The notes under the pieces are model-generated. The model was not told the origin of the DNA. It searched no databases and saw only the letters and a program-made list of their open reading frames with translations. 28,971 nucleotides of DNA, taken from IMG/VR virus record IMGVR_UViG_3300024433_000035, positions 1 through 28,971 of that record, one strand, 5' to 3'. The position numbers and the translations under genes were made by a program. This document shows, piece after piece, positions 4,646 to 20,792 of the stretch. The DNA is from a virus. The first letter of the stretch is position 1. The number at the start of each line of letters is the position of its first letter.

Positions 4646-5637
4646 TAAAACACCCGGCCTCCAAACTGCTTCCGCAGGAAACTGAACAGCAGCCCATCGA
4701 TCGCGGGGATCCCGGTTTCATTATGCACCGCCGCGCGTTCGAATAATTTCCGGAGAGTATAGGCATACCCGTCCACCGATTCACTCGCGAAGTTCGCAAA
4801 CATCGGCGCGGTAACTGTGTCCCACTTGCCGCCTTCTTTCAGGAGCAGACACGTTGCCAGCGATATCGGATCCGGACATGCAGCATAGAGCCCCCAGGTC
4901 GCGTCGACTGCGATATTCTTAAACCCATACGGGAATATCGATGATGTCCCACTACAGTATGCCACTGCGGCTTCGCCGGTCGGCGGCTCCATCTGATTCC
5001 GCGGCCACGGTCGACCGTCTTTATGGATCAGCCAAGTTCCGCGGATTCTATAATCTGCAACCGTGAAAGTCGCGGTAGCATCATCAAGATTCGTGATGGC
5101 GGTTAATTCCAGGATCGGCCCATCGCATGGCAAATAGAACATCCCGGTGCCGTCGACATAACGGGTCTCTTGTACTGGCAAAAAATGCTGCCCGCAGACT
5201 CGATCGATGATCGACATAGCAATCCGGATGAGATACTGAATATCGTCATCCGACAGTGGGCTGCCGATAAGACAGCGTGCACGCGCCTCGGTTACGGACA
5301 GATAATAATCCGCAGCTGCAAACGTCCCCGCTGCATAGACATAGAATTCCAGCGTGGCCGTTACGGCGTCGTGCCCGGCCTCCGGCGTGTAGTACCACTT
5401 GTCATAATGCTTGCCCAAAGTCTCAGCGCCAGGGACGGCCCAATCCACATAATAAAGCCCGGTAGCATCGCGCACGATTTCGCTGGCTGCGAAGGTGTGT
5501 AAAACCGAGAGATCGGCTGCGAGGATCTCTACCTGCGTAAATGCATATGGATCATAGAGATTCCCTTCGGGATCGTGAAACTTAATGCCGAGCCGGACAG
5601 TTTGGCCTTGCTCGGCGGCATAGCGTGAAACGGCCAT
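4645..5637 (-). CDS. Head-tail adaptor with an extra N-terminal beta-sandwich domain
   Basis: A 330-residue protein starting at ATG 5637 behind AGGAGG. Residues 1-105 look like an Ig/BppU-like beta-sandwich (QGQTVRLGIKF, GLYYVDWAVPG, ATLEFYVYAAG). From about residue 110, YYLSVTEARAR, SDDDIQYLIRIAMSIIDRVC and GQHFLPV match the start of gp6/gp15-like head-tail connectors, whose first helices carry this acidic DDD..L...A...ID pattern. The C-terminal part ends in LFSFLRKQFGGRVF. Normal adaptors are 100-200 residues, so this is a fusion. The N-terminal domain resembles the two proteins encoded just upstream, suggesting domain duplication. Confidence 0.72.
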   Translation of the reverse strand: MAVSRYAAEQGQTVRLGIKFHDPEGNLYDPYAFTQVEILAADLSVLHTFAASEIVRDATGLYYVDWAVPGAETLGKHYDKWYYTPEAGHDAVTATLEFYVYAAGTFAAADYYLSVTEARARCLIGSPLSDDDIQYLIRIAMSIIDRVCGQHFLPVQETRYVDGTGMFYLPCDGPILELTAITNLDDATATFTVADYRIRGTWLIHKDGRPWPRNQMEPPTGEAAVAYCSGTSSIFPYGFKNIAVDATWGLYAACPDPISLATCLLLKEGGKWDTVTAPMFANFASESVDGYAYTLRKLFERAAVHNETGIPAIDGLLFSFLRKQFGGRVF

Positions 5638-5649
5638 CTCAATCGCCTC

Positions 5650-5958
5650 CTAATATGCCTGCGCGGTGAAGCCACGCAAGGCTTCGATGATGTCCTCATC
5701 GACATCAAACACCTGAAACGAATAACATGGCGGGCTTGAGCAGTCCAGGGTCACTAGCCATGCCCCGAGCGCATCCGGGGTGAAGTCCACATAATAGACC
5801 GCCGTCGCGCCGATCTCTACCACACCCGGCGTCAGTGCCAGCACCAGTAAGGGGTTGTAGATTTCAGCCGTGATATTCCCGGCGATCCCCGTTGCCGGGG
5901 TTCTGTCCGCATTCAGGATCCGCATGAACACGCGGATTGGCTCGTTAATGATGTTCAT
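5650..5958 (-). CDS. Small beta-sandwich (Ig-like) structural protein
   Basis: A 102-residue protein coupled by ATGA to the upstream gene. It begins MNIINEPIRVFMRILNADR and contains TAVYYVDFTPDALGAWLVTL at about residues 52-71, the same strand-turn-strand pattern as in its two neighbours (GEYYYNVTSDSGGMHKVSV and GLYYVDWAVPG). This resembles Ig-like or BppU-type domains used as decoration or baseplate modules in phages. It ends 12 nt before the adaptor start, whose AGGAGG fills the gap. A virion surface or neck role is inferred. Confidence 0.65.
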   Translation of the reverse strand: MNIINEPIRVFMRILNADRTPATGIAGNITAEIYNPLLVLALTPGVVEIGATAVYYVDFTPDALGAWLVTLDCSSPPCYSFQVFDVDEDIIEALRGFTAQAY

Positions 5959-6248
5959 GCGGTAATTGTTCCTTCCTGATATACAAAGAAACTCCCCCAG
6001 CCGTAGACGGCATCGGCAACGACACTCACCGAAACCTTATGCATCCCGCCGCTGTCTGAAGTGACGTTGTAGTAATATTCTCCGCCGCCGATCTCGGTTG
6101 CGTTCCCGGATACGAGGATTGTGTTGTCCTCCCGCCGGACTTCGACCGCGACTGTTCTGCCCGTTAATGGCCCGGTTTCATCAACCACTGCGATCGGGAT
6201 CTGGATCTGTTTCCCAATCGGATGCCGCCCACACCAGCCTGTGCTCAT
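5955..6248 (-). CDS. Small beta-sandwich (Ig-like) structural protein
   Basis: A 97-residue protein with GGAG upstream of ATG 6248. The middle reads RTVAVEVRREDNTILVSGNA and then GGGEYYYNVTSDSGGMHKVS, an alternating beta pattern like a bacterial Ig-like domain. It is the first of three consecutive genes carrying this domain; the third has it fused to the head-tail adaptor. It overlaps the next gene by ATGA. No catalytic motif is present. A structural or adhesive role on the virion is inferred. Confidence 0.63.
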   Translation of the reverse strand: MSTGWCGRHPIGKQIQIPIAVVDETGPLTGRTVAVEVRREDNTILVSGNATEIGGGEYYYNVTSDSGGMHKVSVSVVADAVYGWGSFFVYQEGTITA

Positions 6249-6272
6249 GGCGCTATCTCCGATGTGATTGCG

Positions 6273-6950
6273 TTATACATTTTCCCAATAGCCAACCGTT
6301 CTGAAGAGCACTATCCCCGTGCCAGCTCCGCCGAAATCAGCACAGAAGCAAAACTTCTGGTCGACGATTTTGATTATCGTCGTGAAATTGAACTGAGCGT
6401 TAACGGCCTGGAGCCTATATGCTTGTCGCTTACCATTGGCCTCCGTCTCATACGGGTGCAAGACTAACCTGCCATTGATGGCCGCGCTGTCCAAATATGT
6501 CACATAGACTAGGGCAGCGATGACATCGCTATTCAGAAATTCTGAGCAGTCTATCTCAAAGTATTTGAAAGCCCACGGGGAACCAACAGATGGACTATTC
6601 GTCGCAATCGCATCGCCCGCACTCCAAGCCGGGGTCATGGGTGCTGTCAAAGTAATTCTATTTGTCAGCGTGTTGACCGATTCGATCAGCCTGTATTCTC
6701 CGATGGTTGAATTGTATAGTCTCAAGTGCCCGATCTCATGCCCGGTAAGGAGTCTCGGCACGATGCTGTCTTCATTGCCGACAACATTTTTATAGATTAA
6801 AATGGTGTCTGAAACAAACGTATCTATCTCTGCGGCAAAGATTGTATCACTGCTGGCGGCGTTCCCGAAAATCTCATCGTCACTCGTATAGTTAACAAAC
6901 CTCGTGAGTGGGCTCGGGACGCTCCCGCTGATCCTGGTTACGATGATCAC
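6273..6950 (-). CDS. Predicted virion structural protein
   Basis: I choose GTG 6950, which overlaps the upstream stop as GTGA and has AGAGGAG ten bases upstream; this gives 225 residues. A longer reading from GTG 7001 exists but lacks a ribosome binding site and would overlap the upstream gene by 55 nt. The protein contains GEYRLIESVNTLTNRITLTA followed by a W-S-A-G-D turn. This EYR..I..V....ITL motif recurs in phage structural proteins that contact membranes or fibres. The C-terminal half is beta-rich, and FCFCADFGGAG lies near residues 203-213. The exact role is unknown. Confidence 0.6.
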   Translation of the reverse strand: MIIVTRISGSVPSPLTRFVNYTSDDEIFGNAASSDTIFAAEIDTFVSDTILIYKNVVGNEDSIVPRLLTGHEIGHLRLYNSTIGEYRLIESVNTLTNRITLTAPMTPAWSAGDAIATNSPSVGSPWAFKYFEIDCSEFLNSDVIAALVYVTYLDSAAINGRLVLHPYETEANGKRQAYRLQAVNAQFNFTTIIKIVDQKFCFCADFGGAGTGIVLFRTVGYWENV

Positions 6951-7685: not shown

Positions 7686-8120
7686 CTATAAGACCCCATA
7701 GGCATAAGATCCATAATCGGTATCGACCCGCATGGCCCCAGGCCCGGCTGGGCGGATGAAATATCCACGCGCGGTAAACGTGATCGCCTTCCCACCACTG
7801 GCCCGCCGCACCACAAATTCCGCATTGGCTGGCAGAATCATTGCCTGCACATAGGTGCGCTTCCCGTGTTCGTAAAACCCCTGCACATAATCGAATTCGA
7901 AAAAGGTGCCGCCCTGCTGATATGCCAATACCAATTCTGTGCTGGCCTGATCGCCACTCGGGAAATCCAGATCTTGAATCGCGATGCAATAGTGGCTCGG
8001 CGGCCTCACGATGATATGCCAGTTATCATCGGCCCAGGTCATCGGTACACGATACCAAGATTGGATTGGCTTCCCGAAAGCGACGGCGCGCCGGAACTTA
8101 TTGATCATCGGATAGCCCAT
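7686..8120 (-). CDS. Uncharacterised virion-block protein
   Basis: A 144-residue protein with AGGAGG upstream of ATG 8120. Its N-terminus overlaps the end of the glycosyltransferase gene by 16 nt. It is rich in aromatic residues and beta strands (WADDNWHIIVRPPSHYCIAI, FFEFDYVQGFYEHG, ITFTARGYFIRPAG). I do not recognise a family. Its place between the glycosyltransferase and the LamG-like protein suggests a decoration or surface protein, but this is position-based only. Confidence 0.58.
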   Translation of the reverse strand: MGYPMINKFRRAVAFGKPIQSWYRVPMTWADDNWHIIVRPPSHYCIAIQDLDFPSGDQASTELVLAYQQGGTFFEFDYVQGFYEHGKRTYVQAMILPANAEFVVRRASGGKAITFTARGYFIRPAGPGAMRVDTDYGSYAYGVL

Positions 8121-9208
8121 GTCTTCTCCTCCTCGCGGACATTTATATTAACTCTCTCCGCAATCGCCTGACGAACGCGGGCAATGATCTCGCTGGATGA
8201 AATCGCTCGCATACACTCCAGCGTCGTACAGGTCGGCCTCTTGTCAAAGCACGGACACTTAGGCAGCCCCAGGGATCCCGCCTTCCAAATCGGGAAGGCA
8301 TATCGATAATGCGATAGGCGTAATCGTGGCGGCCAGCTTGAGTATAAATCTACATGAGGAGTTTCAACCGCTTCCGCCAGATGACACAGCCCGGTATCCG
8401 GAGCAATCACGGCATCGCATTCGGCGACGATCGCACATAGCTGCCGGATATTGAGTTGCCCCGTGAGATTCAGATCCGCTGGCCAATCCAGGAAGTCATT
8501 ATATGTTAAAACCGCTGACATATTCTCTTCATTCAGACGATGTGCCACTTCAATGACTTGCGCCTCGGGGAATGTCCGCAAATGGATCGTGCTGCTTTTC
8601 GCAGCAATAACCACGCGCGGCGCCGGGACTTCAGCGAGGGTCTGCCTGGCCCATTGGCGTTCAGATTCGGTCAAGACGGGCACGCAGAACCGATACGCCT
8701 TGGGGCGGCTACCAAGAAGATAATCAAAATAGATATCGATCCGATCGGTGGTATATTTCGCATGATGCCGTTCGGCGAATCCCCGCAAATCGATTGCATC
8801 AAAAGTTCCCCGCATGCTGGAGATTTGATAGGTGCAGGTAAGCCATGGCACATTTTCAAATAGCTCGCGGTGATAAGAATTAGTCGCCCAGGCAAAGCGC
8901 AGATGTGGGTGCGCCTCATCCAATGCTTTGATCGCTGCCGAGATAATCACCAGGTCGCCGAGACCAATGTCGCGGACAATAACAACCTCTGTCCCGGGGC
9001 GGAGTTTCTTCAAGTGATCCGATGGCCAAAGCCGGAAGTCTTTGTAGGGGGCTCGGAAATATCCCGTTCGCAATAGCCAGTTATAATCGTGCTCACATTT
9101 GACACCGAAGATCTCGCCGCGCACAGCGTGGTAGGTGTTGCTCATGGGGACGGTGCCCTGCCATGAAACGGAACGCTTCAGGATCAGGTGCCCGCAATAC
9201 TTCGGCAT
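8105..9208 (-). CDS. Glycosyltransferase family 9 (heptosyltransferase-like)
   Basis: A 367-residue protein starting at ATG 9208 behind AGGGG. The N-terminal Rossmann half has VVIVRDIGLGDLVIISAAIK at about residues 75-94, the GT9 signature in which GDLV replaces the usual GDxLL. The C-terminal half has VAECDAVIAPDTGLCHLAEA near residue 270, the family's acceptor/nucleotide motif (D-S/T-G...H-L-A), followed by ETPHVDLYSSW. GT9 enzymes move heptose or related sugars from nucleotide donors onto glycans at the cytoplasmic face. A cluster of cysteines (CPCFDKRPTCTTLEC) lies near residues 317-331. The gene lies between the major capsid gene and surface protein genes, so modification of a virion protein or of host surface glycan are both possible. 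The family call is firm; the substrate is unknown. Confidence 0.88.
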   Translation of the reverse strand: MPKYCGHLILKRSVSWQGTVPMSNTYHAVRGEIFGVKCEHDYNWLLRTGYFRAPYKDFRLWPSDHLKKLRPGTEVVIVRDIGLGDLVIISAAIKALDEAHPHLRFAWATNSYHRELFENVPWLTCTYQISSMRGTFDAIDLRGFAERHHAKYTTDRIDIYFDYLLGSRPKAYRFCVPVLTESERQWARQTLAEVPAPRVVIAAKSSTIHLRTFPEAQVIEVAHRLNEENMSAVLTYNDFLDWPADLNLTGQLNIRQLCAIVAECDAVIAPDTGLCHLAEAVETPHVDLYSSWPPRLRLSHYRYAFPIWKAGSLGLPKCPCFDKRPTCTTLECMRAISSSEIIARVRQAIAERVNINVREEEKTWAIR

Positions 9209-9290: not shown

Positions 9291-10322
9291 CTAGTAGGTG
9301 CTGGACTCGACGCAGCACTCATCTCTGGTCGTCAGATGGTCAAGCAATACTGCGGCATCGGTGTTGATGATACCGGTATCGAACGCGATCCTGAAGATAT
9401 GGAACGTCCGTGAGTTCACGCCATCCCGCTGACGCTCGTAATTGATATCATACTGAATACCAAGCACGAGGTTCTTCGGGTCTGTCAGAAACATGAACGT
9501 CCCCGCCTGGCCATCTTCATAATGCCCGCAGGCATTCGCCAGATCGGTCGGCAGGAGCGGGATCGTTTCCATCGGAGTGGTCATCCAGGTTGCGGGAGCC
9601 TCCCCCGTGATAACCTTGTCCCCAAGGGCAGTTCCCCGCTTCTGCAGAATGTCTGCCCAATCCTGGAACACGTCGTCGGCCATGAAGAAGCGCAGTTTCT
9701 TTTTGTCCCGACGCCACTTGGTCGGGAGCTGCTTCATCATCTGCCCGAAATGACAGATGTCCAAGCAACAATTGGGGAAGGTCGGCGTCACAACGTGAGC
9801 CGCCTTGAGCTGCTTGTACCATCCATCGAAAAGGTGAAATACGCTGGTGTCTACATCCGCATGGACATAGGAATGATCGATGTTGGCCATAAGCGCCATG
9901 ATCTCCAACTCGTTTGCGAGCTGGGATCCGACCATCTTTAATACCTGCTTCTCCAGCGCATCGCCGGTGAGATTGTCTGAGAGCATATCATCACAGATCG
10001 GGATGACGGCCTTGAATTTGCGCGCGGTCAGTTTGAAGCCTGTGGCCGACATGCCGCCGGTGTCGACGTAGTCGCCACAGTTGTCTGGGCGCAGCATACC
10101 TTTATTGATATCGATAAACCGCACCCACTTCTCATTGGTCGTCATCCGCTCGACTCTGACCTTGCTCCACAGCGTTGACTCATCAACGATGAAATCAATC
10201 AACCGGTCAGCTTCCTCGGGCTGGATGATCGACGGCGCGCTCGAGCTTTGAATAGCCTTCTTAAAGTCGAATGTATCCTTTGCTTCGACTCCAAGAAGCT
10301 GCATGGCGCGTGCCTTGCTCAC
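9291..10322 (-). CDS. Major capsid protein, HK97-fold type
   Basis: A 343-residue protein starting at GTG 10322 with AAGGAGG seven bases upstream. It follows the protease-scaffold gene, the standard place of the major capsid protein. The N-terminal arm ends in PSIIQPEEADRLIDFIVDES (residues 30-49), a motif of one branch of phage capsid proteins, and the C-terminal half ends in VNSRTFHIFRIAFDTGIINT, typical of the last strand of the P and A domains. NCCLDICHFG at about 192-201 and DECCVE near the end give several cysteines, so cross-linking is conceivable. It is preceded by a 71-nt gap and followed by a strong hairpin, suggesting its own expression control. Confidence 0.88.
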   Translation of the reverse strand: MSKARAMQLLGVEAKDTFDFKKAIQSSSAPSIIQPEEADRLIDFIVDESTLWSKVRVERMTTNEKWVRFIDINKGMLRPDNCGDYVDTGGMSATGFKLTARKFKAVIPICDDMLSDNLTGDALEKQVLKMVGSQLANELEIMALMANIDHSYVHADVDTSVFHLFDGWYKQLKAAHVVTPTFPNCCLDICHFGQMMKQLPTKWRRDKKKLRFFMADDVFQDWADILQKRGTALGDKVITGEAPATWMTTPMETIPLLPTDLANACGHYEDGQAGTFMFLTDPKNLVLGIQYDINYERQRDGVNSRTFHIFRIAFDTGIINTDAAVLLDHLTTRDECCVESSTY

Positions 10323-12661: not shown

Positions 12662-13472
12662 TGAGTTCGACTCCTTCCAATACCGGCAGGAAGGTGCATT
12701 GACAATGCACGAGTTCCTCGGCCCCTGCCGAGGGATCGCCCGGGTGCATCATCTGATGCGCACCGACAGTGAACGGCGCGTCCATGCGCTGCCGCTGGCC
12801 GTGTGCGTCCATATGTGTCTGCCGACTATTCCGAAATGAACAAGCCCAATCTTTGAACTCTACGCTTGTGGTTTTGTAGACTTCAAATTGCGCCTGCTCG
12901 ACTGCGATGAGCGTTTCTGTCCGCGCCGTGGCATTCGCTCTGCCAATTGAGAACTCATCGAATTTCGCCGCAATCATCTGCCCGACCTGCAATGGGTTCA
13001 GCCCCTTGTCATAGAACCCGGTCGCGATGGTTCGGGACAGATCATCGATCAGATCGTCAGCGAAAAACTGCCCCCATGCGGCTGCGCGGATCTTGAGGTT
13101 TTCAAGTACAGTGATATCTTTCAGGTTAAAAGAGCCAGGCATTCCCATGCGGATCTGTGCCGTTTTGCCCCCCGCATTATATGCCGGGAGCGAACGCGCC
13201 TTGAGTGTCGCTTCCATCTCGGCGGCAAGTCCCTGGTGGGTACCTCGCAGATCCGACAGCAGGATTTCTTTAACCAACCGTTCCTCTTCCGGACTGGCCT
13301 TCTCGGTGCGTTCTCTCTCGGTCTTCACATAGATCCGCTCGAGCGTATCCTGCTTTTCCATCGCTGCCATCCCGGTGCGTTTGGCGTCAACCACATGCTT
13401 ATGAATAGCGTCATACGTGGCCCGCTCAAGCGGCTCCAGTGGAATCGGGCGAGTAAAAGTTTCACGCGACAC
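12627..13472 (-). CDS. Minor head protein, SPP1 gp7 / Mu gpF-like
   Basis: The protein carries the Mu F-like head morphogenesis pattern: an Arg-Thr-Glu block (ANATARTETLIAVEQAQFEV), then SFRNSRQTHMDAHGQ, the F-T-V-G turn, a P-G-D-P segment and the terminal EELVHCQCTFLPV with an H-C-x-C motif. Such proteins bind the portal and are packaged in small numbers. GTG 13472 (281 residues) is preferred since GGGAG lies seven bases before it and it overlaps the portal stop by 11 nt; ATG 13496 would add eight residues but has a poor binding site. Order portal then gpF-like is standard. Confidence 0.86.
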   Translation of the reverse strand: MSRETFTRPIPLEPLERATYDAIHKHVVDAKRTGMAAMEKQDTLERIYVKTERERTEKASPEEERLVKEILLSDLRGTHQGLAAEMEATLKARSLPAYNAGGKTAQIRMGMPGSFNLKDITVLENLKIRAAAWGQFFADDLIDDLSRTIATGFYDKGLNPLQVGQMIAAKFDEFSIGRANATARTETLIAVEQAQFEVYKTTSVEFKDWACSFRNSRQTHMDAHGQRQRMDAPFTVGAHQMMHPGDPSAGAEELVHCQCTFLPVLEGVELIEEDIWDGSQR

Positions 13473-14973
13473 GGTGCTGCTCCCTGAAGCGGCCATACAT
13501 TTCCATCGCTTTTACCTGCGCCTCGGGATCCATCAGCGCCATGAAACTCGGGAACCCCATGGCAGCACTCCCGGGTGTGCCAGTTGTAATCTCTCCGCGC
13601 CGGATCCCGAGATCCATCATCGCCAACTGCGCCTGGATTACCTGAAACGGCAGATTCGCCCACGGCTCCGGAATGGCCGGTAGAGCCATCTTCAAGAACT
13701 TCGTCATGTACTCTCGGCCTTCATTGATCGACATAAATGGCAGCACCCCGATCCGCGCCAGGATCTCGGCCTCGCGCTGTTCGTCGAGGGTATCGATCTC
13801 ATCGAACTTCGCATAATGATCGTGAACGAACAGCCCCTCTTTTATCAGGCGGAGCAATTTCTTTTCCCATGTCTCTTGACGCGGCTTGGTAATCGAATGC
13901 TTGTAAACTTCAATCTGTGTCTCACCACTGCCGGTGCCGATGTTGCCGGTTTCTATGATACCCACGCGATTCGGGAGCATCCCATAGGAACGCAGGATCT
14001 CATCGCGGTTGTCTCTCCGGTATTCGCGGAAATCCGCGTCCTTATGATCCGGCCCCAGCTTCTTCCACTCGAGTTCAATCTCCTTGGGGATTTCCAGGTA
14101 GAGTAGCCGGTAGTGATCACCCCGGAGCACGAGCTCGAGGTGGTTCGTAATGTTCTCACGGAATACGGCGAGTTCCTTGTCCATGCCGACAAGATCGCCC
14201 TTGACCATCAGGCACCATTCCGGCAGCGTCCGGTTGAAGAAGAACTTGATATTCCGATCTGCCTGGTATTGATATCCCCGCACCGCAGATAGCGCAGGGA
14301 CAATCCGGGGGATCCCGTAGACCGGCGAGAACGAATGATAATGCCGGAACCAGATCATCTCATTAAGCAAAGCCCCTGTATCCGGATCCCGCGATCGTTC
14401 ATTCTTGGGATCGCTGCCGAAGCGCCGGAACCATACCTTCTGTGCCCCGCGGATTTGACAAAAGTTCTTCATGTCAATTGTGATCCGCACCTCTTTCGCT
14501 GGAACGTGGTCGAGGCGCTGAACAGGCTTGGTGGGCAAGTTCCCAATTCGTGTGCATTCGATATAGCCGTTCCCGGTCGATTCCCAATCCATATTTGTGG
14601 CATCAGAGATCTCGCGGAAGGTATCGTCCGGATTGCAATCGCCGAAGAACGTCTCGACCGCCAAGCGATTTTGCTCACTCGCCAGGTCTTTCTTAAAGGG
14701 AACGATGTGTAACCCAAGACCTGAGACATCGGTTGAAATCTGATTCACGGTAACCGCGAAATCGGTGCTGCTCAGAAGAAGCGCTGCCATCTGCTCCAGA
14801 GATTTCCCACCGAGCGGCGGGATCTCAAGATCCCATGCGCCTTTACTGTACTGCCGGAAAAATGGGTCAACAATCTTCGTGGGCTGCATCCAATCTTTAT
14901 ATGGACGCTTCGGCCCTGGCCCCAAGGATAACGCCTTAGCTCCGCGCTCTTTTATGATATCGCCATCAGCCAT
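13462..14973 (-). CDS. Portal protein
   Basis: A 503-residue protein directly after the large terminase, starting at ATG 14973 behind GGGGGA. Features of the HK97/PBSX-type portal family include DATNMDWESTGNGYIECTRI at about residues 124-143, the clip-region FRHYHSFSPVYGIPRI around 208-223, and the long C-terminal helix block with ILRSYGMLPNRVGIIETGN followed by GETQIEVYKH. The portal forms the dodecameric ring through which DNA enters and leaves. Length is normal for the family. The gap to the terminase stop is 15 nt, and the following minor head gene overlaps its end. Confidence 0.92.
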   Translation of the reverse strand: MADGDIIKERGAKALSLGPGPKRPYKDWMQPTKIVDPFFRQYSKGAWDLEIPPLGGKSLEQMAALLLSSTDFAVTVNQISTDVSGLGLHIVPFKKDLASEQNRLAVETFFGDCNPDDTFREISDATNMDWESTGNGYIECTRIGNLPTKPVQRLDHVPAKEVRITIDMKNFCQIRGAQKVWFRRFGSDPKNERSRDPDTGALLNEMIWFRHYHSFSPVYGIPRIVPALSAVRGYQYQADRNIKFFFNRTLPEWCLMVKGDLVGMDKELAVFRENITNHLELVLRGDHYRLLYLEIPKEIELEWKKLGPDHKDADFREYRRDNRDEILRSYGMLPNRVGIIETGNIGTGSGETQIEVYKHSITKPRQETWEKKLLRLIKEGLFVHDHYAKFDEIDTLDEQREAEILARIGVLPFMSINEGREYMTKFLKMALPAIPEPWANLPFQVIQAQLAMMDLGIRRGEITTGTPGSAAMGFPSFMALMDPEAQVKAMEMYGRFREQHRVA

Positions 14974-14988
14974 GTTTGTCCCCCACGA

Positions 14989-16542
14989 TTATTTCCCAAG
15001 CGAAGTGGCTTTAAGCCCACCGCGCGTCCTCTTGCCACAGGCGCTGGTAAAAAACCAAGATGCCATCAGGCGATCGCCTGTATGCTCAACGGGATCGAAG
15101 CGTAACATATCATCTATCCATTCTGCCGATTGATGGTTCCTGGGGATCCGCCACATACGGTTTTCGAAGTCGACAGACATCGCGCGAACGCCCAGGGTAG
15201 GATCCGCCTTGTTCTTGCCCGTAGTAAAAGGATGCAACCGGATGGCCTTGGCGAATCGTTTAATTTCATCAAGCGCCATGGAGCCTTCGGATGGCGTGTT
15301 TTTGATGATGGCCCTAAAGATCTCATCGGCGCCTCTTAAGAACTGCAACAGATAATCCTGTGCCGAATTGTTTTCCACCTCAAACAACACAGGTTTGAAG
15401 CGATCCTGAATCTGACAGAAATTCTTGATGATGTCAACAAGTCCCATTCGGCCCGCGATGATATTAAGCACCACTTTTGTCCCATGCGGATCCACGCCGC
15501 CAATGAAAAATACTGTCTCATGTGCGCCGCGCTTCTTCTTGACTGCCAAGTCAACACCGACATAGACCTGCAGTTCATTGTCGTCATAGCGGGAGACAAA
15601 ATGCCTGCCTTCGGCCTCGGCCAGTTCAACGCATGTCTCAATCGCTGCCCGGCTAAAATCATCACTCCCGCGTTCCTTGTCGGGGATATTTTTCATCGAT
15701 CGTGCATACTCGATCGAGCTGACCTCGGCGAGTCTTTCCTTGCGGCGCCACTCCGGCCAACCACAGACCTCCCCGGACGGCATGATTTCAAGATCCGGCC
15801 AGAGATCATCATCGGCATCATAGCGTTCGACGTGATAATTTGTATTCGCCGCAGCCCAATGCATCGCGTCTTCTGCATGCCAGGCATTGCCGATCATCCA
15901 GAGACGAGCCAGCGCGGTAAGCCTGGAAATCACTGTGTTCTTGACATATTCAATCACCCGCTTGCGCTGGCCCCGGGTTAGAGTATTTTCGAAGTCGAGG
16001 ATATCATCTAAGATAGCCAGGTCGAGCCGCGCTCCCATGATGTTCCCGTTCACCCCGACCGCCTCCACCGTATAATCCTTATTTGACAGATCCTTTCGCT
16101 CAACAACGATGTGACTGTCCTGCCAGCCCATGACTCGCCCGCGCCTGCGTTCAGGACGCACGTGTGGAAACACCGCCTGATAGCGTGCGTTATAACCGAT
16201 CGTCTGGCGGATCACGCCGAGAAATTTATGCGCCTGCCCAGCCGTATTGGAAACCAGCGCTGCGCGGATGTTGGTGTTCTTGCCGATCTCCCAGCTCAGG
16301 CGGCACACGGAAATCTGCATCGACTTCCCGTGCTCAACCGGGGCGAAAATAACCAGGCGCCGATATTCATTGCAGAGATCCTGCCATTCGTCATGAAGGG
16401 GTTGTGCTTTCCAACCGAAAACGTACTCGCCGAAGGTCGCCGGATCCTGCCTGGCTACCTGGATCGTGTCGCGTTCGTAAGCGCCGAGGTCGGCTTCCAG
16501 CAGATCCTGATCATGCTCAATTTTCCCGGGGGAGTCTGTCAT
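14989..16542 (-). CDS. Terminase large subunit
   Basis: From ATG 16542, which overlaps the upstream sulfatase-like gene as ATGA, the product is 517 residues. The ATPase half has a Walker A of the terminase type, FAPVEHGKS (residues 66-74), an adenine-side segment near the N-terminus (QPLHDEWQDL), and Walker B RLDLAILDD (172-180). The nuclease half has YVGVDLAV with Asp 331, FEVENNSAQDYLLQF with Glu 390, and the late MSVDFENRMWRIP block. This is the motor and nuclease that packages DNA into the prohead. All key residues are present. The longer reading from 16602 is rejected because the overlap start fits the operon's habit. Confidence 0.94.
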   Translation of the reverse strand: MTDSPGKIEHDQDLLEADLGAYERDTIQVARQDPATFGEYVFGWKAQPLHDEWQDLCNEYRRLVIFAPVEHGKSMQISVCRLSWEIGKNTNIRAALVSNTAGQAHKFLGVIRQTIGYNARYQAVFPHVRPERRRGRVMGWQDSHIVVERKDLSNKDYTVEAVGVNGNIMGARLDLAILDDILDFENTLTRGQRKRVIEYVKNTVISRLTALARLWMIGNAWHAEDAMHWAAANTNYHVERYDADDDLWPDLEIMPSGEVCGWPEWRRKERLAEVSSIEYARSMKNIPDKERGSDDFSRAAIETCVELAEAEGRHFVSRYDDNELQVYVGVDLAVKKKRGAHETVFFIGGVDPHGTKVVLNIIAGRMGLVDIIKNFCQIQDRFKPVLFEVENNSAQDYLLQFLRGADEIFRAIIKNTPSEGSMALDEIKRFAKAIRLHPFTTGKNKADPTLGVRAMSVDFENRMWRIPRNHQSAEWIDDMLRFDPVEHTGDRLMASWFFTSACGKRTRGGLKATSLGK

Positions 16543-17534
16543 CGCCCAACGTACCCTAAACCCTCGAGCCGTTTTAAGACCTCCGGATCTGCAGTCGGCC
16601 ACGGCAGGGACGGCCCGGGTTGTTTGATGGAAAACCGGCGCAGAATCGTATTGAGCATCATGTGGTGGTCGGCGGGTTCATAGACTTCGCGAACAGCCAG
16701 CTGGATCGGCAATGGCGTCCGCGCTATGAGGGGAACCCGAATGAGTTCGGGGAACATCCCATAGGCATGAATACAAAAGCCCCGTTCGCCTAAGCCTTCA
16801 CCATGGTCGCCGGTAACGAAGATCTCGGCATCCGGAAAGGCGTCGAAGAGTTCAGGCATCTTCGAATCGAGAAATCGGATCGCCCCATCGTAGGCAGCGA
16901 TGTAACATGCCGGATGATTGGCGATGCGTTTGCCGAAATACCGCGAGCCCTCGACTGTCCATTCCTGGCTATCTTCGCCGCACCACTCGACCAGCGCGCC
17001 GATCTTGTCGAGGATCTTCATGCCCGGCATTGCCATCGGCCCCCAGCGTTTCTTGTGGGTTTGCCAGAGAGCGTCCCCGACAAAACGCTGGTGGTTGCCC
17101 CAGGGTTGATACATCGCATGCGTCTCCTGCAGGTGTAGCACCCCGAAAAACTCCGGGCGGCCTCGGTGTGCAGCGATAAAGGCATCGACCATCTGATTCG
17201 CCGTTGGCCTCTTGCCGCTCCGGTGATACCACGCAGGCCAGGACTTAAAGTCGAAAACGCTCGTGGCCATGCGCTGGCCTGCCGGTGTCGCGTTGCCGCT
17301 GTAAAACGATGTGTGGATCTTGTTGCGAGAAATCGTCAGCGCATAGTTGGCGATCCGCTGGAACGTCCCCTTGGTCGCTGAGGCATTAGACTTGAAATCG
17401 CTCCACATCAAACCCTTGGCCCCGGTTACCACGGAATCCAAGAACGGAGTCGTCTCGCGATCGTACCCATAACAATGGATATGATCGCTCCGCAAACACT
17501 CGACCATGACAAGAATAATCTGTGTTTTGTTCAT
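16539..17534 (-). CDS. Sulfatase / alkaline phosphatase superfamily protein
   Basis: A 331-residue protein with clear sulfatase architecture: ILVMVECLRSDHIHCYGYDR (residues 7-26), VLHLQETHAMYQPWG (132-146), IFVTGDHGEGLGERG (238-252) and HAYGMFPELIRVPLIAR (256-272), ending EGLGYVGR as many sulfatases do. Asp 243 and His 244 are the expected metal ligands. The first metal position is Glu 12 where Asp is usual. The nucleophile region reads SNASATKGTFQRI (49-61): there is no C/S-x-P-x-R signature for formylglycine, so a Ser or Thr nucleophile, as in phosphatases and phosphoglycerol transferases, is more likely. It is joined by ATGA overlaps to the small terminase before it and the large terminase after it. 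Function in the phage is unknown. Confidence 0.85.
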   Translation of the reverse strand: MNKTQIILVMVECLRSDHIHCYGYDRETTPFLDSVVTGAKGLMWSDFKSNASATKGTFQRIANYALTISRNKIHTSFYSGNATPAGQRMATSVFDFKSWPAWYHRSGKRPTANQMVDAFIAAHRGRPEFFGVLHLQETHAMYQPWGNHQRFVGDALWQTHKKRWGPMAMPGMKILDKIGALVEWCGEDSQEWTVEGSRYFGKRIANHPACYIAAYDGAIRFLDSKMPELFDAFPDAEIFVTGDHGEGLGERGFCIHAYGMFPELIRVPLIARTPLPIQLAVREVYEPADHHMMLNTILRRFSIKQPGPSLPWPTADPEVLKRLEGLGYVGR

Positions 17535-18391
17535 CTGAGATCCTCTATCGATGGCACTTCAAAATCACAACCCTCTTCATCTGCACCATCGTCTCCGGCG
17601 TCATTGTCAGCCGCTCGGTCAAGTCCTGTGGCGGCGAAACTAACATCAAGGTGTCCGCCGGCAGATCCGAAATCGTCAGGATCGGGATCCCCCACAGGCT
17701 CCTCAGAGACCTCCTCGGCGGTAGCAGGGATGGCCTGGGGATCGTCTCCAGGCGGAACTTCAAAGAGGACTCCATGAAGGTCTCCTTCCTGCGGCGCATC
17801 CTTCACGCCACGCAATGCCATTTGCGTCCGCGCATCGGTTACGGTCGTTACCTGCTCCCGGCCCAGCAGCGTGCGGAGTTGCCGCAGATGTTTGCGCACC
17901 GCCGGAATGTTATCCGCTGGCACCTCCGCGAATTCCCCCTTGCCGCCTCCAGGCGGCGCGTTGTTTGTCGTCTGATTGATAAAGGCGAAAACCGGCGACT
18001 GCTCGGTCTTGCCGAAGCCCAAGATCATCGCCTGCAACCGGATCGCCTCGAGTACCCGCGCGTCAGCCGCGGTGCGTGCGTTGTAATCGGGTTCGGTCAC
18101 TAACTGTGGTTTCTCGTCCTTGTTCTCACGCACCTCCCGAACCTTCACGGCCTTGTCGGCGATCTTGTTCTGCCGAACAATTACCGTCCCGATCCTCGTG
18201 AGCATCTCGCCTACGGCACAGCCGTCAATGATCAGGAGATCGGTATAGCGCTTATAAATCATCTTCAGGTCATCAACCACCGTTGCCCGGGTTACCTTCA
18301 CCTCCTCGGCAATCTGCGTTGGGTTCGCTCCCCGCGCGGCAAGGCTCAAAACCTGCTTTTCACGTTCCCAGCGCTCCTGCCTGTCAGACAT
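17531..18391 (-). CDS. Terminase small subunit (probable)
   Basis: From ATG 18391, with GGAGGG nine bases upstream and an 8-nt overlap with the ParB-like gene, the product is 286 residues. Residues 17-49 form a helix-turn-helix (SLAARGANPTQIAEEVKVTR, then ATVVDDLKMIYKRY), as expected for DNA recognition by a small terminase. A middle helical part (ADARVLEAIRLQAMILGFG) could mediate oligomerisation. The C-terminal 70 residues are strongly acidic (GDPDPDDFGS, DNDAGDDGADEEG). Its position upstream of the large terminase, separated only by the sulfatase-like gene, supports the call. A general transcription regulator is the main alternative. Confidence 0.72.
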   Translation of the reverse strand: MSDRQERWEREKQVLSLAARGANPTQIAEEVKVTRATVVDDLKMIYKRYTDLLIIDGCAVGEMLTRIGTVIVRQNKIADKAVKVREVRENKDEKPQLVTEPDYNARTAADARVLEAIRLQAMILGFGKTEQSPVFAFINQTTNNAPPGGGKGEFAEVPADNIPAVRKHLRQLRTLLGREQVTTVTDARTQMALRGVKDAPQEGDLHGVLFEVPPGDDPQAIPATAEEVSEEPVGDPDPDDFGSAGGHLDVSFAATGLDRAADNDAGDDGADEEGCDFEVPSIEDLR

Positions 18392-19022
18392 CCGTGTCGC
18401 CCTCCGCAAGACCGACCGCTCCCAGGTACCCTCGCACCATTACCATCAGCGCCTTGCCCCGGGAAACGCCTCCAGCTAACGCACTGGCCCGCGTCAAGGC
18501 CTCCTCGAGCAGCGCCGGATCGTCCTCCACCACGAAGGAGACGATCTTCGGTCGCGTCCGCTCCGCCTCCTCCTCCTCGGCATCCAGGTCGACCTCTAAG
18601 GCATCGGATACCTTCGAAAGTTCAAGCGCATCCCGGAGCTCCGCCTCGCTGTAGGGGAGATGCGTCTCGAGGTCGTCGATCGATAGATCCGTCGACAGAT
18701 CCTGAACCAGCTTCGCAAACAATGCTTGCACCGACTGCCCCTTGAGTTCGTTCAGGTTGATCGATAGGATCTTCGCTTCACGATCGCCCAGGTCGACCAC
18801 GCTGCAGGGGACGGCCGTGTAGTCTAACTCCTGCGCCGCCATCCAGCGATGGTAGCCACCGAGGATCTCCCAGCGCCCATCGTGCGGACGCACCACCAGC
18901 GGCTCTACAAAGCCCCGGGCTTTTATATAGGCCCGGAGTTTCGCATATGTCTCCGCGTCCATGCGATTCGGATTCCATGGATTAGGTACCAAATCGCCGA
19001 TCGGAATTTCCTGAATATCCAT
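18384..19022 (-). CDS. ParB/Srx-superfamily (ParB-like nuclease fold) protein
   Basis: From ATG 19022 (GAGG five bases upstream) the product is 212 residues. Residues 1-90 show the ParB-like fold: IPIGDLVPNPWNPNRMD, YIKARGFVEPLVVRPH, then GRWEILGGYHRWMAAQELDY, where GGYHR is the family's phosphate-binding GxRR-like motif. The C-terminal half is acidic and helical (LEVDLDAEEEEAERTRP). In phages such proteins sit near terminase and methyltransferase genes and may act as nucleases, NTP-binding factors or partition proteins. Longer starts at 19049 and 19070 are possible but have weaker binding sites. The fold call is firm; the role is not. Confidence 0.8.
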   Translation of the reverse strand: MDIQEIPIGDLVPNPWNPNRMDAETYAKLRAYIKARGFVEPLVVRPHDGRWEILGGYHRWMAAQELDYTAVPCSVVDLGDREAKILSINLNELKGQSVQALFAKLVQDLSTDLSIDDLETHLPYSEAELRDALELSKVSDALEVDLDAEEEEAERTRPKIVSFVVEDDPALLEEALTRASALAGGVSRGKALMVMVRGYLGAVGLAEGDTDV

Positions 19023-19186
19023 CTCAACCTCGCTCTCAGCTCCCGCCATGTCCACCACGGCCAGAGCCATTCGATCCGCAACGCGTCAAGCAGATCCTGC
19101 TCGCTGATAATGTAATCGATAAACCGATCGGCCTGAGCATAGGTGATGAAGGCTTTGGCCTGGCCCGGCGGTAGACCCAACATCAT
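18923..19186 (-). CDS. Short ORF with a capsid-arm-like motif
   Basis: ATG 19186 overlaps the upstream stop as ATGA, the coupling used throughout this phage. The first 40 residues contain ADRFIDYIISEQDLLDALRI, which closely resembles ADRLIDFIVDESTLWSKVRV in the major capsid protein of this same phage. From about residue 41 on the sequence (WPWWTWREL...) runs over the start of the ParB-like gene in another frame and looks like a shadow. Either a short protein is made with a poorly conserved tail, or it is a remnant. An overlap of about 100 nt with the ParB-like gene counts against a full-length functional product. Confidence 0.42.
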   Translation of the reverse strand: MMLGLPPGQAKAFITYAQADRFIDYIISEQDLLDALRIEWLWPWWTWRELRARLRWIFRKFRSAIWYLIHGIRIAWTRRHMRNSGPI

Positions 19187-19527
19187 GCCCTCACCCTTCT
19201 CGCGGCCTCGAGGATCCCGCAGATCTGCGATATCGCCAACCGAATCGCCAGCCTCTCCAGGCGCACGATAGCAGCGTTAATGCGATCGACATATCCGGCC
19301 ACCTCTGCCGTGACGACAATCGCTAACCCACCAGGTTTGTACGGCCCCATGAGCCAACGGCCACAAGCACCACAGCGCTGCTGTGAATCCTTGACCAACG
19401 CGTTCCGCACTCCGCACATGGGGCACTCCCACGTCTTGTCAATCGCCCCGCCTACCTCACCCGGATCACATATTCCACGTTTGTCGTCCGATGCCGATCC
19501 GATGCCAGCGCCGCCAGGTGTGTGCAT
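19183..19527 (-). CDS. Zinc-ribbon protein
   Basis: A 114-residue protein whose start ATG 19527 is supported by GGAGGAG six bases upstream, although it lies 76 nt inside the methyltransferase gene. CPMCGVRNALVKDSQQ followed by CGAC (residues 35-55) is a classic zinc ribbon, C-x2-C-x13-C-x2-C. The C-terminal half is helical (YVDRINAAIVRLERLAIRLA) and may form a coiled coil. Zinc ribbons usually bind nucleic acid or mediate protein contacts. No specific family is recognised. It lies between methyltransferase and ParB-like genes, so a DNA-related role is plausible. Confidence 0.7.
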   Translation of the reverse strand: MHTPGGAGIGSASDDKRGICDPGEVGGAIDKTWECPMCGVRNALVKDSQQRCGACGRWLMGPYKPGGLAIVVTAEVAGYVDRINAAIVRLERLAIRLAISQICGILEAARRVRA

Positions 19528-20471
19528 TTGATCTCCTCCACGTCTATATCTTCACGGAACTTCCGGATGCTGTCAACTAGCTCCGCGATCGGAAACCCCT
19601 GGTTGCCATAGGATAGAACCCAGGTGGGAAACTTCTCGCAGGCTATAAATAAATCCTCCAACGCCGATCGCGCCTCCTTCGTCGAGAATACACTGCGCGG
19701 CACCTTCGATATCTCGCCCGCCAAGATCGAATCCAACACCCGAAGGCTCTGCTCATAACTCTGCGTGCCCACATACGGCGGATCCAGGTAGACCACATCC
19801 CCCTCTACCCGATCGAGAAAATCAAAGACGTCCAGCTGGTGCGCCTCGTTCTGAAGCCCGTTGGTGAATACTCCCTTGTTTATATACGACAGCACCCGCC
19901 TGGCAACCGTCCGCGGATGCCCCGCTATGTTCCGCGCCAAGATGTCACGAACGTAGTTCTGATTCATCTCCTCCCATTTCCCGTCTTCCGCCTGCTGGAT
20001 GATCGTCTTCGCCCCGAAGTTCCCCGCCGGACGCATCCGCAAAATGTACTTGATCAAAAGAAGCAGAAGCATCCACCGCTTGACACCCTCCGCTCGATGC
20101 GCCCAATAGAATGCCCGATCGAGAAAACGCGCGTGGCGCGTTGTGAATACTCCATAGGCGAAATGGTCGGCAATGAAGGTCTGTGGCTCCGGGGGCTTCA
20201 CGAAAAGCCGATCGATGTCTAACTCGTCTAAGCGTACACGATCGTTTGCAATCAATGCCTGGCCGACAATGTGACTCCGAAATGCAATGTCGTTCGCCAG
20301 TACCCGGTAACCCCGAGCCTTCCCGAAAAGCGAGACGCTGCCGCCCCCCATGAAGGCATCCACCAGAACGGGTGCTTCCGAAGGCGGGGGGATCCACTTG
20401 AAAATGTGACCGAGCAGACGACGCTTGCCGCCCCGGTAGAGCGGCAGTGCCCGAAGCCTCGACCAGGCCAT
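19452..20471 (-). CDS. D12-class DNA adenine-N6 methyltransferase (Dam-like)
   Basis: From ATG 20471, preceded by AAGGAGG seven bases upstream, the product is 339 residues. It has the Dam-family entry LYRGGKRRLLGHIFKWIP (residues 11-28), the SAM-binding motif I VDAFMGGGSVSLFG (37-50) and the catalytic motif IV DVVYLDPPYVGTQSYEQ with DPPY at 230-233. D12 enzymes methylate adenine at N6. It is the first gene left of the repeat-rich region. The target cannot be read from sequence; GATC is the classical target of the Dam branch and is frequent here. A longer reading from 20582 is rejected since it lacks a binding site and its extra residues are not family-like. Confidence 0.88.
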   Translation of the reverse strand: MAWSRLRALPLYRGGKRRLLGHIFKWIPPPSEAPVLVDAFMGGGSVSLFGKARGYRVLANDIAFRSHIVGQALIANDRVRLDELDIDRLFVKPPEPQTFIADHFAYGVFTTRHARFLDRAFYWAHRAEGVKRWMLLLLLIKYILRMRPAGNFGAKTIIQQAEDGKWEEMNQNYVRDILARNIAGHPRTVARRVLSYINKGVFTNGLQNEAHQLDVFDFLDRVEGDVVYLDPPYVGTQSYEQSLRVLDSILAGEISKVPRSVFSTKEARSALEDLFIACEKFPTWVLSYGNQGFPIAELVDSIRKFREDIDVEEIKCTHLAALASDRHRTTNVEYVIRVR

Positions 20472-20792
20472 GACGCGCCTCCTTGAGAGATCGAGGTCGA
20501 TGAGCACCCGCTGGAAGCCCACCGACCTCACCCAAAACGGAGTGTGACGAGGATGAGTCGTCAGCGACGACCACTCTACCATGGCCCGACTGAGACGACA
20601 ACATAAAAATTCTCCCCGGCGTTCCCGTGTGTGAAAAATGACGACCTGGACAAGATACCCGGGCGATCCGGCTCGTGATCAGAGGCGGGGGATAGAGCAA
20701 AATTCGTGCCATCGATTTACGCTAATTTGCATCCTGCGCTGCCGGCCTTGCATGTTTTCGCACAGCTTCTGCTTTGCTGTGAGTGTCCTCGC

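Follow-up and report, generated by a model that had tools for sequence, protein, structure and literature searches.

A threonine-type sulfatase-superfamily gene overlapping the putative small and large terminase genes of a phage, with a possible role in glycan modification

The closest described systems to the gene reported here are enzymes of the sulfatase superfamily. Sulfatases need a formylglycine, which is made from a cysteine or a serine, NPP-type enzymes (nucleotide pyrophosphatases) of the same superfamily use a threonine nucleophile, and known phosphoethanolamine (PEtN) transferases, the group to which EptA, EptC and MCR belong, are membrane-anchored and periplasmic. In MCR-1, zinc is bound by Glu246, Asp465, His466 and Thr285, Thr285 can carry phosphate, and His395, His478 and Glu468 matter for activity (PMC5216409). 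A phosphothreonine form of MCR-1, at +78 Da, is known. Here we analyze a stretch of 28,971 nucleotides from the IMG/VR virus record IMGVR_UViG_3300024433_000035 (the window), a phage represented by metagenome sequence alone, in which a gene of this superfamily lies between a putative small terminase gene and the large terminase gene. An incomplete coverage of the literature yielded no description of a sulfatase or PEtN-transferase gene placed between terS and terL in a phage, and the collections searched likewise gave no published case of the present gene in that position.

An enzyme gene in the terminase operon

The genes and overlaps that frame the locus are as follows.

17531..18409, minus strand: putative small terminase (TerS), an HTH protein whose translation probably starts at the ATG at 18391
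17531..17534, minus strand: ATGA in which the TerS-like ORF upstream ends and the enzyme gene starts, read in the sequence
16539..17534, minus strand: PF00884 enzyme gene, 331 aa, ATG start, predicted cytosolic and of the Thr-nucleophile type
16539..16542, minus strand: ATGA in which the enzyme gene ends and TerL has its likely ATG, read in the sequence
14989..16542, minus strand: large terminase (TerL), PHROG 38, E 5e-53
13462..14973, minus strand: portal protein, Pfam and PHROG
9291..10322, minus strand: virion structural (major head) protein, PHROG
8105..9208, minus strand: glycosyltransferase family 9 (GT9, heptosyltransferase-like), directly downstream of the head protein gene

A reading made from the sequence alone had described ATGA overlaps at both ends of the enzyme gene, and these are seen at 17534-17531 and 16542-16539; a Shine-Dalgarno-like AGAGGA lies just 5' of the enzyme gene start, and a GTG at 16602, upstream of the ATG, is a possible alternative start for TerL. 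Judged from the overlaps, it is plausible that the enzyme is co-translated with the packaging motor, and the gene, which lies in the terminase operon, is probably expressed alongside the late genes. That both flanking genes encode terminase subunits holds firmly for TerL, while the TerS label is putative. The upstream ORF gives weak HTH matches (PHROG 2538 TerS, E 0.09) and shares 33% identity over 57 aa (E 4e-8) with an HTH ORF overlapping the TerL start of a related locus, L141; these matches and its position indicate that it is probably TerS. After TerL the gene order is portal, Mu F-like protein, ChaB/protease protein and head protein. Upstream of the terminase genes, a ParB-like protein and a D12 adenine methyltransferase are encoded on the minus strand (window 18384-20582).

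The only Pfam family found in the 331-aa protein is PF00884 Sulfatase (E 4.9e-18), a match that is not due to chance, since its 65.9 bits exceed the gathering score, which is 25. A phage that is collinear with the window at about 95% DNA identity, and circularly permuted with respect to it, IMGVR_UViG_3300031566_000037 (G001; 56,758 bases), carries the enzyme gene at the same place, with 97.6% protein identity. Comparison of this one sequence pair (NG86) gives a dN of 0.010, a dS of 0.26 and a ratio of 0.04, which falls inside the range of this phage's other structural genes. On its retention in G001 and the low dN/dS, the ORF is a real gene under purifying selection.

The gene is an insertion in this phage lineage. 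A TerL-alignment scan of IMG/VR yielded 80 loci, some with short upstream flanks, in which the closest TerL apart from that of G001 is 33-35% identical; when all ORFs of the 80 loci were compared with an enzyme-family profile, a match was obtained in G001 only, some flanks being short. L141 has no space for an additional gene, since its HTH ORF extends across the start of TerL, and a hypothetical gene directly overlaps TerL in two annotated genomes, those of Weizmannia phage Youna2 and Bacillus phage BSP7. Given its absence from the other 79 of the 80 TerL loci and the direct overlap of TerL in other phages, the enzyme gene is, by these sequence comparisons, a lineage-specific cargo gene (moron) and not a standard packaging part; cargo was among the possibilities that the sequence-only reading had raised. 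That reading would have counted an absence from all related phages against itself; the gene is indeed absent at or below about 35% TerL identity, and yet it is kept and selected in the 95%-identical phage. Separately, the out-of-frame overlap of about 250 bases between the TerS-like HTH ORF of L141 (L141:4026-4712) and TerL is itself unusual and may reflect a sequencing indel.

The same observations bear on whether the protein could be a part of the packaging machine, namely a terminase accessory or regulator that uses an old fold for binding only. The TerS-TerL position with ATGA overlaps on both sides and the strong constraint (dN/dS 0.04) would fit such a role, but the catalytic residue set is kept in full, the other 79 related TerL loci do without the enzyme, and its viral relatives are placed elsewhere, before TerS or after the portal gene, so we regard a packaging role as very improbable. 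Beyond these loci, a search of 50,697 phage records with the enzyme sequence gave no match at E 0.01, and a BFVD structure search gave no tailed-phage match at E 0.001; tailed phages thus seem to carry compact sulfatase-superfamily members of the Thr type very rarely.

Predicted fold, active site and location

An AlphaFold2 model of the enzyme, built from 72 aligned sequences, has a pTM of 0.82 and a mean pLDDT of 78.8, with low confidence in the middle (residues ~160-200), a region that may shape the substrate pocket. In structural alignment (VIA) the best match is N. meningitidis EptA (Z 26.1, 2.7 A, 269 residues), followed by EptC, and S1 sulfatases and phosphonate monoester hydrolases start at Z 25.0, about one Z unit below EptA. 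Values of Z 23-26 across the 50 matches listed place the model in the superfamily fold, with EptA just ahead of S1 sulfatases; the scores draw no clean line between PEtN transferases on one side and sulfatases or phosphonate monoester hydrolases on the other, and the site residues are more informative than the fold. The sulfatase/alkaline-phosphatase-superfamily layout first claimed for the ORF thus agrees with both the PF00884 score and the predicted fold, and each element on which the claim was built can be read in the protein: Asp243-His244, the HAYGMFPELIRVPLIA block and, at the end, EGLGYVGR. Alignment assigns the following site residues.

17499..17501, minus strand: Glu12 codon, aligned with MCR-1 Glu246 and predicted to be the first metal ligand
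17373..17375, minus strand: Thr54 codon, aligned with MCR-1 Thr285 and with the formylglycine Cys of sulfatases, and predicted to be the nucleophile
17118..17120, minus strand: His139 codon (MCR-1 His395)
16803..16808, minus strand: Asp243-His244 codons, predicted metal ligands (MCR-1 Asp465-His466)
16797..16799, minus strand: Glu246 codon (MCR-1 Glu468)
16767..16769, minus strand: His256 codon (MCR-1 His478)

Across 86 aligned relatives His139, Asp243 and His244 are invariant and position 54 is threonine in 78, while the first-ligand position, Glu12 in the enzyme, is aspartate in 80 and glutamate in 4. All key site residues coincide with those of the EptA-type protein L023, and the seven-residue EptA/MCR site set is complete in the enzyme, in G001 and in two cellular relatives of the set. 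L023 and L024, both membrane EptA-like proteins, served solely as an active-site control; their full-length genes (~4735-6495) lie at the ends of IMG/VR contigs and may be phage cargo or host flank.

The formylglycine signature C/S-x-P-x-R is absent from the enzyme, which has ATKGTFQ with Thr54 at that position, and the first metal ligand is glutamate instead of aspartate; both features had been noticed from the sequence and are upheld by the alignments. Because formylglycine needs a cysteine or serine and the enzyme has Thr54, hydrolysis of sulfate esters is unlikely. The Pfam family name, the close S1 sulfatase structures (Z up to 25.0) and the top rank of sulfatases in the profile search would suit an enzyme that truly hydrolyzes sulfate esters and thereby releases sulfate from glycans of the host or the environment. 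However, the missing formylglycine residue speaks against this role, and a protein with no export or secretion signal could not reach extracellular sulfated glycans, which leaves little room for the earlier suggestion that sulfate is removed from host glycans and makes this explanation scarcely credible. The alternative suggestion, action on phosphate rather than sulfate esters, is favored by the Thr nucleophile position together with the Glu first ligand, as in EptA/MCR. We therefore consider it likely that the enzyme uses a phospho-enzyme chemistry, as a Thr-nucleophile phosphotransferase or phosphodiesterase.

No hydrophobic segment was found in the enzyme (the best 19-aa KD is 1.2, vs 2.43 in the EptA control), and the catalytic beta strand of the model, the first strand of the domain, starts at residue 5. 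With nothing ahead of that strand to anchor or export it, and with no hydrophobic segment, the protein should act in the cytosol.

Relatives, glycan genes and candidate substrates

A scan of genome contigs with the single protein found no relatives, and an alignment-based scan found 80 distant ones. Several candidates were set aside: two loci of the first IMG/VR scan, L003 and L004, matched the pattern by chance in an unrelated protein with MWSDFKSN, and L025 is spurious, without a sulfatase ORF. The compact group also excludes L022, whose short contig encodes a canonical sulfatase of the Cys type together with a TerL, and L019, which has an N-terminal hydrophobic segment. Among the compact viral relatives, which are few, that of G004 lies just before TerS-TerL in an overlapping row of GT4-like, methyltransferase, enzyme-relative and UDP-GlcNAc 2-epimerase genes, and those of G002 and G003 follow TerL at a distance of about 6 kb, beyond the portal gene, amid methyltransferases and glycosyltransferases. 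Three haloarchaeal relatives are flanked by GT4 genes, and glycosyltransferases are the commonest neighbor family of the cellular relatives in raw counts, which carry no background rate. The G004 contig also encodes a PAPS-reductase-domain protein (L029:2589-3437).

The phage itself carries glycan genes. The GT9 gene has no PHROG match and a dN/dS of 0.06, and could possibly be a pathway partner of the enzyme. Outside the window, G001 encodes an NTP_transf_3 nucleotidyltransferase-like protein (L008:18493-19521) and a GT4 glycosyltransferase (L009:2-988), giving in total two glycosyltransferases (GT9 and GT4) and one nucleotidyltransferase-like protein. Several points count against the reading favored below: the viral relatives are just 20-30% identical to the enzyme, known PEtN transferases work in the periplasm from a membrane anchor, and the enzyme gene does not sit beside the glycosyltransferases: GT9 is several genes off, and GT4 and the nucleotidyltransferase are outside the window. 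No integrase, tRNA or base-hypermodification genes were found in the part of the phage scanned.

These glycosyltransferases might instead serve DNA, with the enzyme performing a phospho-transfer step of base hypermodification on the phage genome. Phage glycosyltransferases acting on modified DNA bases are described by Pyle et al. 2024, as cited in PMC12619734, and the enzyme gene overlaps packaging genes, but no hydroxymethylase, TET/JBP or nucleotide kinase is present among the proteins of the scanned part of the phage, and we give phage DNA only a slim chance of being the target.

A more serious competitor, though we still think it rather unlikely, is a simple phosphatase, phosphodiesterase or nucleotide pyrophosphatase (NPP-like). 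Its substrates would be small nucleotides or signaling molecules, and it could, for instance, weaken a host defence that relies on nucleotides or tune the nucleotide pools. The Thr nucleophile shared with NPP-type enzymes and the predicted cytosolic location are compatible with it, and two of the compact viral relatives, L020 and L029, give PF01663 Phosphodiest scores as well. However, PF01663 gives no match to the enzyme itself at E <=1, a phage NPP-like protein fares far worse in the fold search (HHTV-1 phosphodiesterase, E 0.42), and the neighborhoods of the relatives are glycan-related. Nor does PADLOC give any match for the enzyme, so the host-defence role raised in the sequence-only reading finds no support.

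We thus favor, with confidence that goes no further than an even balance, a cargo-encoded, cytosolic Thr-nucleophile phosphotransferase or phosphodiesterase that takes part in a glycan-modification pathway of the phage. For its catalysis, metal, donor, acceptor and glycan target we infer the following. A metal, probably zinc, would be bound by Glu12, Asp243 and His244 and would activate Thr54; this residue would then attack a phosphodiester or pyrophosphate donor to form a phospho-threonine (phospho-alcohol) intermediate, and His139, His256 and Glu246 would assist the onward transfer, with water or a sugar hydroxyl as the recipient. The substrate would most likely be a glycan, or a nucleotide- or lipid-linked sugar intermediate of the GT9, GT4 and nucleotidyltransferase-like proteins, a preference based on the glycan genes of the phage and on the glycan-gene neighbors of the relatives. 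The outcome would be a glycan tailored on the virion or on the host surface, and the data may fit either. That phages modify the host surface is well known. For the virion, glycosylation by phage glycosyltransferases is described in mycobacteriophages (Freeman et al. 2023, as cited in PMC12619734).

A more specific version, which we consider a speculative and improbable one, is that a cytosolic relative of PEtN transferases, co-translated with the packaging motor, adds a phospho-alcohol to capsid glycans built by the glycosyltransferases of the phage. If it were true, the virion would bear phosphorylated glycans. More generally, a soluble enzyme with the PEtN-transferase residue set, retained by purifying selection in the late operon of a phage that has glycosyltransferases of its own, would point to phosphate-group decoration of glycans by phages as a class not yet explored.

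Comparison with known systems

With the catalytic domain of EptA/EptC/MCR, the enzyme shares the fold, the Glu-Thr-Asp-His site, two histidines and the Glu of DHGE, and its chemistry may, by analogy, be the same. In contrast to these proteins, it is soluble and cytosolic by prediction, has no membrane domain, and is only ~16% identical. Without the membrane domain, and with 26.2 bits for NCBIfam P_eth_NH2_trans against a cut-off of 500, it falls outside the definition of the EptA/MCR family.

S1 sulfatases and phosphonate monoester hydrolases likewise have the PF00884 domain and a close fold (Z 23-25), but they use a formylglycine from Cys/Ser where the enzyme has Thr54, and NCBIfam PehA (phosphonate monoester / phosphoric-sulfuric ester hydrolase) gives 14.8 bits against 900. 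Compared with longer relatives, the enzyme lacks most of the C-terminal subdomain and retains just its final LGY motif. Haloarchaeal and bacterial 'sulfatase' proteins resemble it at 24-27% identity over most of the protein, in the Thr nucleophile position and in the RLxxLGY end, but they mostly have Asp as first ligand, are at least ~100 residues longer and are cellular; no characterized member was found among these Thr-type relatives. Finally, PHROG 19870 and the compact viral relatives (G002, G003, G004) are, like the enzyme, virus-encoded, compact (288-366 aa) and near terminase or portal genes, whereas they differ in lying elsewhere than between TerS and TerL, in having Asp as first ligand, and in sharing 20-30% identity with it.
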